Notes under the pieces: generated by a model
Databases searched by the model: none
What the model was told of the DNA's origin: nothing
What the model saw: only the letters and a program-made list of their open reading frames with translations
NCBI GenBank assembly: GCA_009780695.1
Contig: WQZN01000001.1
Coordinates: 186,001-250,000 of the forward strand
Direction: 5' to 3'
DNA: 64,000 bases
Source: Microbacteriaceae bacterium
GTDB lineage: Bacteria; Actinomycetota; Actinomycetes; Actinomycetales; Microbacteriaceae
Part shown: positions 4,533 through 38,220 of the stretch, in pieces
Layout of the letters: each line of letters opens with the position of its first letter
How positions within the stretch are numbered: the stretch's first letter is position 1
Made by a program: the position numbers and the translations under genes

Positions 4533-4699
4533 GAGTGACCTCATTCCTGTCAGCCGGGCCGCGAGATCTTCGAAGCCCGGGTGACCCACCCTGCTGAGCG
4601 CACCTGCCCGATCCCTATCCGTTCCCGGCCCGTCACGTGCAAAACCGGGGCACAGGCACTGGGAGAGCCCGATCAGCCCGATAAACGGCGCTCGCCGGG

Positions 4700-4781
4700 C
4701 GCGCGAAGCCCAGAACGCACGATCGGGAGGACGTACCCGCGAAAAGTTCCTCCCTCTCGTGCGTTCTGGGCTTCTCGCGCG
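4700..4781. repeat. Long imperfect inverted repeat (family C) between divergent genes
   Basis: Arms 4700-4731 and 4748-4781 pair almost completely around a 16-base loop. The core CAGAACGCACGA is answered by TCGTGCGTTCTG, flanked by CGCGCGAAGCC/GGCTTCTCGCGCG and GGGAGGA/TCCTCCC. The only defects are small indels. It sits in the 296-base gap between the divergently read genes at 4532 and 4829, so it is not a simple terminator. It is unlike families A and B in sequence. Confidence 0.75.
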
Positions 4782-4828
4782 CGGCGCGGGCCGTGGACAG
4801 GCATCCGGATGTCTGCTTCGCTTCCCCC

Positions 4829-7609: not shown

Positions 7610-7681
7610 TTTCGCGCGTTACGGAGTTCGTCGCGCGCTGCGGCGGCCTGTAACGCGCGATGAACTCCGTAACGCGCGAAA
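7610..7681. repeat. Intergenic palindrome family A, copy 1
   Basis: Two 28-base arms (7610-7637 and 7654-7681) match in 27 of 28 positions, the exception being a G-T pair, around a 16-base loop. The arm begins TTTCGCGCGTTACGGAGTTC. It lies between the starts of the DUF1214 gene and the stop of the MarR gene. Two further copies are at 8991 and 11355. Confidence 0.92.
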
Positions 7682-7714
7682 AACGGACACGGCGCGGCGC
7701 AGCGCGACACGCGC

Positions 7715-8164
7715 TCAGGCCGGCTGGGCGGGGTGGCGCGCGAGCACGAGGTCGAGCAGTTCGACGAGCCGGGCCTGCTCGGCGGCGGTGAGCCCGTCGA
7801 GCAGTTCAGCCTGGACGGCGGATGACGCGCGCTGCAGTTCCGTGAGACGGGTGCGACCGGCATCCGTCACGCTCACGATGTTGCGGCGGCGATCGCCAGG
7901 GTCGGCGCGCCGCGTCACGTGCCCATTGGTGTCGAGACGCGTCACGATGCCATTCACGTTGTTGCGATCGAGCCCGAGGATGCGCCCGAGGTCGGCCTGG
8001 CTCAGATCGCCGTACTCGACGAGGCTCGCGAGCACCGCGAAGTCGGAGCGCGCCTCGAGCGGCAGCCTCTGCGCCGTCAGCCGAGCGCCGATCGTGGCGA
8101 GGCGGCCCGCCTGCCAGCTGACCAGATGCCGCAGGGCCTGCGGCGCGCGCACCTCGTTGTCCAT
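7715..8164 (-). CDS. MarR family transcriptional regulator
   Basis: A 149-residue winged-helix repressor. The recognition region reads LSQADLGRILGLDRNNVNGI, followed by the wing DPGDRRRNIVSVTDAG, both typical of MarR. Dimer helices frame it. It is read divergently from a short-chain dehydrogenase. The 93-base gap holds three near-identical 16-bp palindromes, the probable binding sites, so it likely represses both itself and the SDR until a ligand is bound. The start at 8164 is set by the family N-terminus and by the operators just upstream. The ligand is unknown. Confidence 0.9.
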   Translation of the reverse strand: MDNEVRAPQALRHLVSWQAGRLATIGARLTAQRLPLEARSDFAVLASLVEYGDLSQADLGRILGLDRNNVNGIVTRLDTNGHVTRRADPGDRRRNIVSVTDAGRTRLTELQRASSAVQAELLDGLTAAEQARLVELLDLVLARHPAQPA

Positions 8165-8179
8165 GTCGCGAGCATAACA

Positions 8180-8243
8180 GTTGGCGCAACCAACGATTCG
8201 TGTTACCGTTGGCGTCACCAACGATATGTTGGTGTCACCAACG
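8180..8243. promoter_or_regulatory. Triple operator between marR and the SDR gene
   Basis: Three copies of the 16-bp palindrome GTTGGYGNNACCAACG lie at 8180-8195, 8208-8223 and 8228-8243. Copies 2 and 3 start 20 bp apart, about two helix turns, and copies 1 and 2 start 28 bp apart. They fill the divergent region of the MarR and SDR genes, and copy 3 ends just before the SDR ribosome binding site (AAAGGAAG). They are the probable MarR binding sites. Confidence 0.88.
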
Positions 8244-8257
8244 AAAGGAAGACCCCC

Positions 8258-8976
8258 ATGACCACGAACCTCAGCGGCCGCCGCGTTCTCGTTCCCGGCG
8301 GCACGGGCGGTGTCGGCGCAGGCATCGTGCGCGCCTTCCTCGAGGCGGGGGCGGATGTCGTCGTGCCGACCCGCTCCGACGCCCGCGGTGCCGAACTGCG
8401 CGCCGTGCTCGGCGACCTCGGCCGCAGCCCTCTGCTGCACCTGCCGACGCACGACTACACGACCTTCACGGGGGCCCCGAGGTGCTGGCATCCACCATGG
8501 TCGAGATGCGCGGCGGCATCGACGACGTGATCGTCCCGGTCGGCGGCTGGTGGGCGGGCGGGCCGCTCACCGGAATCACCGCGGACGACTGGCAGCAGGC
8601 GTTCACGGGCCTCGCGACCGCGCACATGGGCCTCGCCCGGGCGGTGCTGCCGCGGATGTCGGGCGCCGGTGCCTACACGATCGTCGTCGGGCAGTCGGCC
8701 GAGTTCCCCGTGCCGGGCAGCGGCCTCGTGAGCATGGAGCAGACCGCGCTGCTCATGCTGCAGCGCGTGCTCGCCGCCGAGAACCCCGGGCGCCGCGTGC
8801 TCGCGCTTGAGCTCGGCCCGGTCGCGACGCGCTTCGCGCCCGGTGAGACCGGGTGGGTGACGAGCGAGCAGGTCGGCGCCGTGGCGATCGCGGCCTCGAC
8901 GGGTGCGGATGTCGCAAGCGGCACCGTGCTGCTGGCATCCGCCGCCGACGCCGCCGCGTTCCTCGCTGCGCGCTGA
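8258..8976 (+). pseudogene. Short-chain dehydrogenase/reductase with a frameshift
   Basis: The first part (ATG 8258) encodes MTTNLSGRRVLVPGGTGGVG, with the NAD(P)-binding TGxxxGxG-type loop, and stays in frame to about 8475. The rest of the protein (GPEVLASTMVEMRGGIDDVI ... to AAFLAAR) continues in a different frame to the stop at 8976. The break falls in a G5C4 run (ACGGGGGCCCCGAGG). One extra G would join the halves as TGGPEV. The reconstructed product would be about 239 residues. The usual YxxxK catalytic pair is not evident in the second half (LVSMEQTALLML at that place), so it is an atypical SDR. Either a sequencing error or a recent inactivation; intact codon use on both sides favours an error or a very young mutation. 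Confidence 0.78.
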
Positions 8977-8990
8977 CGCGGGCCGCGGAA

Positions 8991-9062
8991 TTTCGCGCGC
9001 TACGGAGTTCGTCGCGCGTTGTGGCGGCCGGTAACGCGCGATGAGCTCCGTAGCGCGCGAAA
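8991..9062. repeat. Intergenic palindrome family A, copy 2
   Basis: Arms 8991-9018 and 9035-9062 pair over 28 bases with only two G-T-compatible mismatches. They begin TTTCGCGCGCTACGGAGTTC and surround a 16-base loop. It lies between the convergent SDR and GNAT genes, where it could also end transcription. Confidence 0.92.
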
Positions 9063-9085
9063 AACAGGCTACTGCGGGGCGCGGC

Positions 9086-9565
9086 TCAGCGCGCGAGCCT
9101 GAGCTGCAGGATCAGGTCGCGCGGCGGCACGAAGCCGAGGCTGCGATAGAGCGGCGCGCCGTCCTCGGTGGCGGCGAGGCGGACGAGCGTCGCGTCCGTC
9201 TCGTCGCGGAACCACGCGAGCAGCGCCTCGACGCAGGCACGCGCGAGGCCGCGGCCGCGGAACGCGCGCTCGGTGCACACGTTCGCGAGCTCGCCGCGCA
9301 GTCCGCTCGGGCTGCGCGGGCTCGGCGCATGGTCCTCGACCGTGCCGATCGCGCAGCTGACCACGCCCTCGCCGGGCACCTCGGCGACGAACGCGGCGAA
9401 GCCGCGCGGGTCCGCCATGCGGCGCGCGAACCAGGCGGCGGCCGCCTCGCGCAGGCCCGGCACCGAATCGAAGTCGTCGCCCATCTCGGCCACCATGAGC
9501 GCGCGCAGCTCGATGAGGCGGGGGATGTCGGCGAGCCCCGCCCGCCTGGCGACCACGTCGTTCAT
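9086..9565 (-). CDS. GNAT family N-acetyltransferase
   Basis: A 159-residue GNAT protein. The acetyl-CoA pyrophosphate loop is visible as TERAFRGRGLARACVEAL (R-x-x-G-x-G/A), preceded by the strand GELANVC and followed by LVRLAATEDGAPLYRSLGF, the usual C-terminal strand and Y-x-x-x-GF. The substrate is unknown. The start at 9565 overlaps the stop of the upstream regulator (ATGA), so regulator and acetyltransferase are cotranscribed. The palindrome family A copy 2 lies just past the stop. Confidence 0.88.
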   Translation of the reverse strand: MNDVVARRAGLADIPRLIELRALMVAEMGDDFDSVPGLREAAAAWFARRMADPRGFAAFVAEVPGEGVVSCAIGTVEDHAPSPRSPSGLRGELANVCTERAFRGRGLARACVEALLAWFRDETDATLVRLAATEDGAPLYRSLGFVPPRDLILQLRLAR

Positions 9566-10473
9566 CGCACCATCTTCCCGTCCGCCCCGGGCACCGCGGC
9601 CCCCGCCGCGAGCGACGCGAGCAGCCGCAGCTTCTCCGCGGTCTCGCTGCCCTCGTCGGCGTAGTAGACGACGAGCAGCACATCGTCGACGGGCAGCTTG
9701 TCGCGGTGCAGGCGCAGCTCGCCGACGACGGGGTGCGCGACATCCGTCGTGCCGCCGCCGAGCGCCCGCACGTCGTGCCGCGCCCACAGCTCGCGGAAGC
9801 GCCCGCTCGCGACCGACAGCTCGCCGATGAGCTCGAGCACACGCGCGTCGGACACGTCGTCGCCGACCTGCTGGCGGAAGGCCGCGACGAAGCCCGCCGT
9901 CTGCCGGTCCCAGTCGATCTGGAACGCGTGTTCCTCGGGGTCGAGGATGAGCGAGCGCAGCCGGTTCTCACCCGGCCGCAGTCGCGGGTTGAGCGCCCGC
10001 GCGAGCTCGTTCGACGCGAGCACGTCGAAGGTCTTCCCCTCGACGAAGGCCGGCAGCCCGATCGACGCGAGCAGCGCATGCAGGCGGGCGGGGACCCGCT
10101 CGGCCGCGCCGCGGCGAGCGCGCGCCCGCGCCTGCGTGCGGTGTGGCGGCTCGGGGCGCGCGAGCAGCATCAGGTAGTCGAGCTCGACGTCGTCGAGCTG
10201 CAGCACGCGCGCGAGCGCCTCGAGCACCTGCGGCGACGGGTTGTGGTCGCGGCCGCGCTCGAGGCGCAGGTAGTAGTCCGAGCTGATGCCCGCGAGCATC
10301 GCGACCTCTTCGCGGCGCAGGCCCGGAACCCGACGGCGCGGGCCCGAGGGGATGCCGGCCTGCTCCGGCGTCACGAGGCCGCGGCGCGCGCGCAGGTAGG
10401 CGCCCAGGCGGTTCGTCTCGGGGCCGTCCGGCCCGAGGGCCCCGGCGGCATCCTCATCGTCTCGTTCGTCCAT
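9562..10473 (-). CDS. XRE-type regulator with MmyB-like ligand domain
   Basis: A 303-residue regulator. The helix-turn-helix lies around residues 45-85 (RVPGLRREEVAMLAGISSDY, then YLRLERGRD), the block typical of MmyB-type actinobacterial regulators. The C-terminal two thirds (LPAFVEGKTFDVLASNELA, ... NRLRSLILDPE) match the PAS-like MmyB ligand-binding domain thought to bind lipids or fatty acids. It is read divergently from the SDR at 10577, and this regulator-SDR pairing is very common in actinobacteria, so the SDR is its probable target. ATG 10473 is chosen, with a GTG two codons upstream as the alternative. Confidence 0.9.
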   Translation of the reverse strand: MDERDDEDAAGALGPDGPETNRLGAYLRARRGLVTPEQAGIPSGPRRRVPGLRREEVAMLAGISSDYYLRLERGRDHNPSPQVLEALARVLQLDDVELDYLMLLARPEPPHRTQARARARRGAAERVPARLHALLASIGLPAFVEGKTFDVLASNELARALNPRLRPGENRLRSLILDPEEHAFQIDWDRQTAGFVAAFRQQVGDDVSDARVLELIGELSVASGRFRELWARHDVRALGGGTTDVAHPVVGELRLHRDKLPVDDVLLVVYYADEGSETAEKLRLLASLAAGAAVPGADGKMVR

Positions 10474-10576
10474 CACGCCCACGGTAGCCCCGGCGGGCCG
10501 CGCGAGCCGGGGCCCTGCCACTACCCGGATCCGCAGGGTTCTGCCTCGCCCGCCGCGACCCGCGCACGCTGAGGCC

Positions 10577-11323
10577 ATGGACATCACCGACCGCACCGTA
10601 TTCATCGTCGGCGGCACCTCGGGCATCGGCCTGGGGCTCGCCCGCCGCTTCGCCGCCGCCGGCAGCACCGTCGTCATCGGCGGGCGCCGCACCGACCCCA
10701 TCGACGGCTTCGAGCTCGTCGAGATCGACGTCACCGACTCCGGCTCGGTCGAGCGCGCCCGCGACGCGGTGCTCGCGCGGCATCCCGGGCTCGACACGGT
10801 CGTCACCATGGCGGGCGTGCTGCTGTTCGAGGACCTGCGCGACCCCGCGCACTTCGCGACCGCGCAGACGACGATCGAGGTCAACGTGCTCGGCACGATC
10901 CGCGTGACGGATGCCTTCACGCCCCACTTCCTGGGCCGCGGCGACGGCGCCTTCGTGACCGTCTCGTCGGGCATCGGCTTCCTGCCGTTCCCGCTCATGG
11001 CGACCTACGGCGCGTCGAAGGCGGCCGTGCACTCGTACTCCGAGTCGCTGCGCAAGCACCTCGAGGGCACCGGCGTCACGGTGCACGAGCTCGTGCCGCC
11101 GGCCGTCGCGACGACCCCCGAGCACGAGGCGCAGAACCCGGCCGCGCTGAAGCTCGCGGACTACCTCGACGAGGTCGTGGGGCTGCTCTCGGCCGACCCG
11201 ACGCCCGACGAGATCCTGGTGCGGGGCGTGCAGATGCACCGCTGGGCCGAGCGGGACGGCACGTACGCCGAGCTGCTCGAGCGCCGCTCGGCCCCGCTCG
11301 CGCAACTGCCGGGGCGGGCGTAG
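10577..11323 (+). CDS. Short-chain dehydrogenase/reductase (classical SDR)
   Basis: A 248-residue cytosolic oxidoreductase with a full set of classical SDR motifs. It has the coenzyme loop VGGTSGIGLGLA at residues 11-22, the NAG-equivalent TMAG, the catalytic Ser in VTVSSGIG and the catalytic pair YGASKAA. The shape and the C-terminal region (VHELVPPAVATTPE) resemble the DltE-like group. The substrate is unknown. It is divergent from the MmyB-type regulator, which probably controls it. Palindrome family A copy 3 follows within 35 bases of the stop. Confidence 0.92.
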   Translation: MDITDRTVFIVGGTSGIGLGLARRFAAAGSTVVIGGRRTDPIDGFELVEIDVTDSGSVERARDAVLARHPGLDTVVTMAGVLLFEDLRDPAHFATAQTTIEVNVLGTIRVTDAFTPHFLGRGDGAFVTVSSGIGFLPFPLMATYGASKAAVHSYSESLRKHLEGTGVTVHELVPPAVATTPEHEAQNPAALKLADYLDEVVGLLSADPTPDEILVRGVQMHRWAERDGTYAELLERRSAPLAQLPGRA

Positions 11324-11354
11324 CGGCGGCGGCGCGCCGCACCGCCCGGCCGCC

Positions 11355-11426
11355 TTTCGCGCGGTACGGAGTTCGTCGCGCGTTGCGGAGCCGCCTACCG
11401 CACGGCGAACTCCGCACCGCGCGAAA
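11355..11426. repeat. Intergenic palindrome family A, copy 3
   Basis: Arms 11355-11382 and 11399-11426 pair in 25 of 28 positions around a 16-base loop. The tenth arm position is G paired with C here, whereas copies 1 and 2 have T-A and C-G. It lies between the convergent SDR (ends 11323) and DUF2000 gene (ends 11482). Confidence 0.9.
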
Positions 11427-12947: not shown

Positions 12948-12964
12948 TCGCGCCCCGCGAACCC

Positions 12965-13042
12965 CGTCGGGCACTTTTTCCACTGGCGGGCATACAGAAC
13001 CGCGCCGCCGGCTATGCCCGCCGCTGGAAAAAGTGCCCGACG
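12965..13042. repeat. Intergenic palindrome family B, copy 1
   Basis: Arms 12965-12994 and 13013-13042 pair in 28 of 30 positions around an 18-base loop. The arm reads CGTCGGGCACTTTTTCCACT and continues GGCGGGCATA. Because the right arm also contains a GGAAAAAG run, either strand ends in a T-rich side. It is 17 bases past the DUF1304 stop. Confidence 0.92.
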
Positions 13043-13132
13043 GCCGCGCGCGTCCAGAAATGCCGAGTTCACCCGCGCGCAACCCGATGCCCAGCTAATC
13101 CGGAGGAATGGCTTCCATTTTGCGCATACTGT

Positions 13133-16779: not shown

Positions 16780-16851
16780 CGGGCACAGAACCGACTGTGG
16801 GGCATACGCGATCCGCGGATCGCGTATGCCCCACAGTAGAAAACCTGCCCG
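16780..16851. repeat. Intergenic palindrome family B, copy 2 (contains a perfect 44-nt palindrome)
   Basis: The core 16794-16837 is an exact 44-base palindrome with no loop (half: ACTGTGGGGCATACGCGATC plus CG). Outer CGGGCA (16780-16785) pairs with TGCCCG (16846-16851), with an unpaired A/C-rich bulge between. The outer and GGGGCATA parts match copies 1 and 3, while the centre differs. It lies between the convergent ROK and Gfo/Idh genes. Confidence 0.93.
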
Positions 16852-38111: not shown

Positions 38112-38141
38112 CAGCGGCTCGCAGCGGCTCGGCCGCGCGCC

Positions 38142-38219
38142 CGTCGGGCGCTTTTCCTACTGTGGGGCATATGGCACGGCCGTGCCGGCTATGCCCGCCA
38201 GTAGAAAAAGTGCCCGACG
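38142..38219. repeat. Intergenic palindrome family B, copy 3
   Basis: The left arm (CGTCGGGCGCTTTTCCTACT, then GTGGGGCATA) from 38142 pairs with the right arm ending CAGTAGAAAAAGTGCCCGAC at 38219. GGCACGGCCGTGCC forms an inner palindrome at the tip. It lies between the convergent NUDIX and GH38 genes and touches the GH38 stop, so it can also act as a terminator. Confidence 0.9.
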
Positions 38220-38220
38220 G

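Follow-up and report, generated by a model that had tools for sequence, protein, structure and literature searches.

Hairpins dispersed between genes in Microbacteriaceae and other Actinomycetota are associated with a gene for a predicted AbiEi-like, Vsr-type protein, and we read the two together as a REPtron-like system run by a nuclease-like protein unrelated to RAYT (probability about 0.6). Each gene has one private hairpin family, whose arms follow a 19-nt grammar and whose copies are dispersed with conserved pairing. Flanking copies are near-identical in some genomes, and copies are present or absent between relatives. The recurrence of a gene with its private hairpin across Actinomycetota suggests a repeat-spreading system of a kind not yet described, and we found no report of the association in open-access papers.

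Family-A hairpins in the window and the genus

Three family-A hairpins lie on the forward strand of the window, the whole 64-kb stretch of DNA analysed here, at 7610–7681, 8991–9062 and 11355–11426, and rank among its longest palindromes. Recomputation reproduced exactly the coordinates, 28-base arms and 16-base loops of the first-pass annotation, with Watson–Crick pairs at 27, 26 and 25 of the 28 positions in copies 1, 2 and 3, respectively. In copy 1 a motif, X, appears as CGCGCGTTACGG at 7613–7624 and as CGCGCGCTGCGG at 7632–7643, 19 nt from start to start, with its mirror image in the 3′ arm. Copy 2 is located past the stop of an SDR-type gene (end near 8976) and is faced by a GNAT-type gene, while copy 3 begins 32 nt past the stop of an SDR-type gene at 10577–11323. 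An Rfam search of the window matched no known RNA family.

The source genome (G000) is a 2.95-Mb, 86% complete assembly in 41 contigs, and the hairpin copy numbers given throughout are lower bounds. A search for further copies by covariance model in this genome and its relatives, the check first proposed for the family, was productive. The source genome holds at least eight family-A copies, at least five beyond the window's three, and each of the eight spans 72 nt and has a loop of 16 nt. The model built from these copies found about ten diverged copies of the same 28-16-28 geometry in the congener G003, where the consensus starts ATCCGCGCGNTACGGTCACC... rather than TTTCGCGCGNTACGGAGTTC..., and none in two other congeners. 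At the site of window copy 1 in G001 the flank was not alignable. Placement between genes and near gene ends, as originally described, is true of most copies when genes are taken from a crude caller, the dispersed copies lying mostly at the 3′ ends of tandem or convergent genes.

The window copies carry T-A, C-G and G-C at arm position 10, as the first-pass annotation had claimed, and a fourth copy in the source genome carries A-T. The compensatory change stands for these copies but does not extend to all: pairing at this position is broken in two of the eight source-genome copies (C/A and A/A) and in about three of ten in G003; 12 of 18 copies are Watson–Crick there. When 30 pairs were counted over 17 copies against shuffles and against a slid partner, 85.3% of cells were paired compared with 77.2% after shuffling. 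Double-changed cells numbered 57, against 26.8 in shuffles and at most 14 with the partner slid, and 15 of the 30 pairs bear double-sided changes. Selection on the hairpin itself, the cause originally named, is possible, but template switching or arm-to-arm conversion also produces compensatory changes (PMC8794818). GT and AC mismatches stand at 12/6 in G000 and 19/23 in G003; with no consistent excess of G·T over A·C, nothing points to a folded RNA. The suggested role as an attenuator is accordingly unlikely, as the stem runs TTT-GC...GC-AAA rather than GC then T, and has neither a consistent G·U strand bias nor an Rfam match.

A partner gene flanked by its own hairpin family

No partner gene was found within the window. 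In the source genome it occupies C30:11247–12254, encodes a 335-residue protein and sits between two family-A hairpins (C30:11154–11235 and C30:12402–12483). Its G003 orthologue (2372043–2373044, 61% identical) is likewise enclosed by the G003 version of the hairpin, at 2371954–2372035 and 2373164–2373245, and the two loci are syntenic on both sides.

Pfam returned weak matches of the protein to AbiEi and DUF559 profiles, the latter marginal (E 0.037). PADLOC AbiEi profiles match all 14 of 14 homologues. Their Vsr-like C-terminal part contains D, E, D and K residues that never vary among them and are characteristic of this kind of nuclease. In the structure predicted for a Cryobacterium homologue (pLDDT 87.5), the N-terminal part matches the AbiEi-type DNA-binding protein Rv2827c of M. 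tuberculosis (1zel, E=2e-4), and the C-terminal fold resembles that of the Vsr endonuclease 1cw0 (Foldseek probability 0.98). The partner protein is predicted to be an AbiEi-like DNA-binding part fused to a Vsr/DUF559-like nuclease domain of the PD-(D/E)XK type. Such genes are publicly annotated as 'hypothetical protein' or 'AbiEi family antitoxin domain-containing'. Reading of the neighbouring ORFs at the source locus and of annotated plasmid neighbourhoods revealed no AbiEii nucleotidyltransferase toxin, and phages gave no match to the nuclease-like protein.

Homologues in named records come from Cryobacterium, Subtercola, Agreia and Arthrobacter, several having copies of one hairpin on both sides. 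Of 300 Microbacteriaceae genomes, 218 encode a homologue. We scored loci by a flank test, which requires the 550 bp on either side of the gene, measured from true match ends, to have a repeat in common at E<1e-5. Both flanks bear the same hairpin family at 24 of the 30 best Microbacteriaceae loci, which pass the test, and 20 of 25 pass when loci that contributed a protein to the profile are set aside. Phylum-wide, a homologue match occurs in 78 of 297 genomes and 19 of 29 loci pass; roughly one-fifth of the Microbacteriaceae loci and one-third of the phylum-wide loci have no detectable flanking pair. On plasmids, two genes from Tsukamurella and one from Arthrobacter are flanked as well; their records call them AbiEi-domain or hypothetical proteins. 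Among controls, 0 of 445 random segments pass, as do 5 of 243 genes from 575 kb of G289 and G204. Three of these five belong to the partner-protein family, including one found blind that was not known beforehand, so that the remaining genes contribute 2 of 240. Paralogues in one genome carry different hairpin families.

The arms share a simple grammar. Of 30 hairpin families, 24 have a motif directly repeated in the arm with a spacing of exactly 19 nt, a count that may be biased by the three families that came via the family-A model; other offsets occur in 0–4 families, and shuffles give a mean of 1.2. The repeated motif is CGCGCGNTACGG in family A, GGGCA in family B, TTGAGCCA in the family of genome G102 and TGAGAC in Subtercola. 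The 19-nt spacing is not a general feature beyond Microbacteriaceae.

Dispersal and turnover were followed in two further settings. In G102, a 3.83-Mb contig contains at least about 13 full copies of the hairpin that belongs to its partner gene; some copies also occur in G009, of the same genus, and a search of five other genera gave none. Three more G102 copies are split at the centre by near-identical IS30-type elements, which therefore appear to target them; REPs are likewise split by other insertion sequences (PMC1525189). The elements lie at L109:4671–6007, L123:3459–4794 and L124:2847–4180, and were assigned to IS30 by reading their ORF. Between G289 and G204, which are 86% identical, one copy lies directly past a stop codon in G204 and is absent at the aligned junction in G289. 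This clean empty site corresponds to an insertion of ~96 bp, with no evident target duplication or sharp ends, and at two other junctions unrelated sequence takes the place of the hairpin. As a separate observation, G289 has a GGTCGAGTAGCGAG...CTCGCGCGGCTACTCAATC repeat on C8 at ~371304–371433 (inferred coordinate), between convergent genes, where G204 has a hairpin.

At the orthologous nuclease locus of G289 and G204, identity between the two flanking hairpins is 98.4% in one genome and 90.6% in the other, against 69–73% between genomes, the last value lying below those of the nuclease gene (75.6%) and the right flank (91%). Judged by these identities, copies are partly homogenised within a genome, but not universally, the flanking pair in the source genome being only 77–79% alike. 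Movement of the gene with its flanking repeats as a unit was not encountered, and orthologues are syntenic in both G000/G003 and G289/G204. Since the gene-hairpin unit remains at syntenic places, its behaviour is not transposon-like.

Known systems, rival explanations and a possible mechanism

The closest parallel is the REPtron (REP/REPIN plus RAYT), which similarly combines dispersed intergenic palindromes, one family per partner gene, a gene flanked by repeats, a unit immobile as a whole and compensatory stem changes (PMC3116915, PMC6006769). Here, however, the partner is AbiEi-like plus Vsr/DUF559-like rather than a Y1 HUH transposase, the arm motif is repeated at 19 nt, the copy number is lower, and the repeat foot has no GTAG or CGTC, copies starting TTTCGCGCG or ATCCGCGCG. 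The idea that the hairpins are classical REPINs mobilised by a Y1 HUH transposase of the RAYT type has next to no chance of being correct. The hairpins are palindromic, dispersed and intergenic with REPIN-like geometry (PMC3116915), yet a search for a RAYT-type TnpA-REP gene gave no PF01797 match in any of the four genus genomes (G000–G003), the source genome being 86% and the hairpin-bearing congener 99% complete, while six control genomes were positive. For Actinobacteridae, only the IS200-type Y1 subclass has been reported (PMC6006769); because RAYTs are reported missing there, the palindromic repeats of these bacteria had no proposed enzyme. The first-pass annotation had offered a REP-like mobile element, a suggestion that agrees with the dispersed intergenic copies, the genome-specific consensus, the presence/absence site and the dedicated gene, but the RAYT partner it predicted was wrong.

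The hairpins could instead be operators, with the AbiEi-like protein bound to the flanking inverted repeats as an autorepressor and the dispersed copies forming a regulon. AbiEi and Rv2827c do regulate themselves by binding paired 23-bp inverted repeats in their promoters (PMC7319586), and the match of all homologues to PADLOC AbiEi profiles fits this idea. We nevertheless consider it unlikely, given that the gene has copies on either side, including downstream, that dispersed copies are mostly at gene 3′ ends, that the DNA-binding part carries a predicted fused nuclease fold, that an operator has no need for pairing kept at the variable position 10, and that copies are gained or lost between relatives. 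Little credence is due to the view that many genes have taken up the hairpins to terminate transcription or stabilise mRNA ends, the partner gene being flanked by chance or for insulation: the stems are stable and lie near stop codons at tandem or convergent ends, but no U-tract follows the stem, the G·U excess on one strand is not consistent between the two congeners, and one protein family is strongly preferred. Independent selfish palindromes or template-switching products, spread by another host enzyme and tolerating or targeting nuclease genes, are a similarly long shot. Template switching can create and mend stems (PMC8794818), and no partner was found around the family-B copies examined (below), but a separate hairpin family for each gene, even among paralogues in one genome, argues against this origin.

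Each part of the partner protein also has known relatives. AbiEi antitoxins and Rv2827c, which bind inverted-repeat pairs (PMC7319586), have an N-terminal part similar to the modelled one, but here a nuclease fold is fused to it and the repeats lie on both sides of the gene and across the genome. Vsr/DUF559 endonucleases share the predicted C-terminal fold and the D, E, D and K residues; the partner protein differs in its fused DNA-binding domain and marginal DUF559 match, and a role in mismatch repair is not indicated. In TIRtrons a tyrosine transposase gene lies between long terminal inverted repeats that, as at the present loci, belong to a dispersed family of moderate abundance (PMC3733652), but no tyrosine transposase is involved here.

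Under the preferred reading, a REPtron-like system run by the nuclease-like protein, the protein would bind, cut and mobilise its hairpins. The AbiEi-like part may recognise the two arms as paired inverted sites, with two monomers, one per arm; the paired 23-bp inverted repeats bound by AbiEi proteins (PMC7319586) resemble the two arms around the loop. The nuclease domains would then cut at or near the palindrome centre, repair of the break from a sister copy would homogenise the family, and repair might occasionally plant a new copy beside a gene end. More tentatively, at somewhat short of even odds, we propose a categorically new class of prokaryotic repeat system, in which a dedicated AbiEi-Vsr-type nuclease, acting via break repair, would cut, homogenise and spread palindromes with a 19-nt grammar in most Microbacteriaceae and many other Actinomycetota. 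A widespread gene is thereby offered as the enzyme for actinobacterial palindromic repeats, with the private hairpin as its likely DNA substrate. Dozens of protein-hairpin pairs thus become open to a test of binding and cutting, and, if true, the reading means that the combination of REP repeats with an enzyme has evolved repeatedly, each time around an unrelated protein.

Family B and other palindromes

A second family, B, is represented on the forward strand of the window by hairpins at 12964–13043 (31-18-31, 80 nt, GGGCA repeated at 19 nt) and 38141–38220 (31-18-31), and has more than 12 dispersed copies in the source genome, including C4:21361 and C4:22066. No partner gene was found in the stretches examined around family-B copies in this 86% complete assembly. 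A forward-strand palindrome with perfect 22-bp arms at 16794–16837 has, by eye, ACTGTGGGGCATA in common with inner family B and is probably a truncated or related copy.

The longest palindrome of the window, at 4685–4794, has 47-nt arms that are 87% complementary around a 16-nt loop; by eye, the spacing of its internal repeat is 16 nt instead of 19. A third hairpin family, starting CAACTGCGCCAGACGG, is common to both congeners (L011:2046–2119 in G000 and L045:5994–6069 in G003), and its G000 copy shows CTGCG twice at 19 nt by eye. In other Microbacteriaceae (G030, G252, G195 and G093), the family-A model matched the long hairpins L030, L031, L032, L033 and L034, several of which have X-Y-X arms as in family A.
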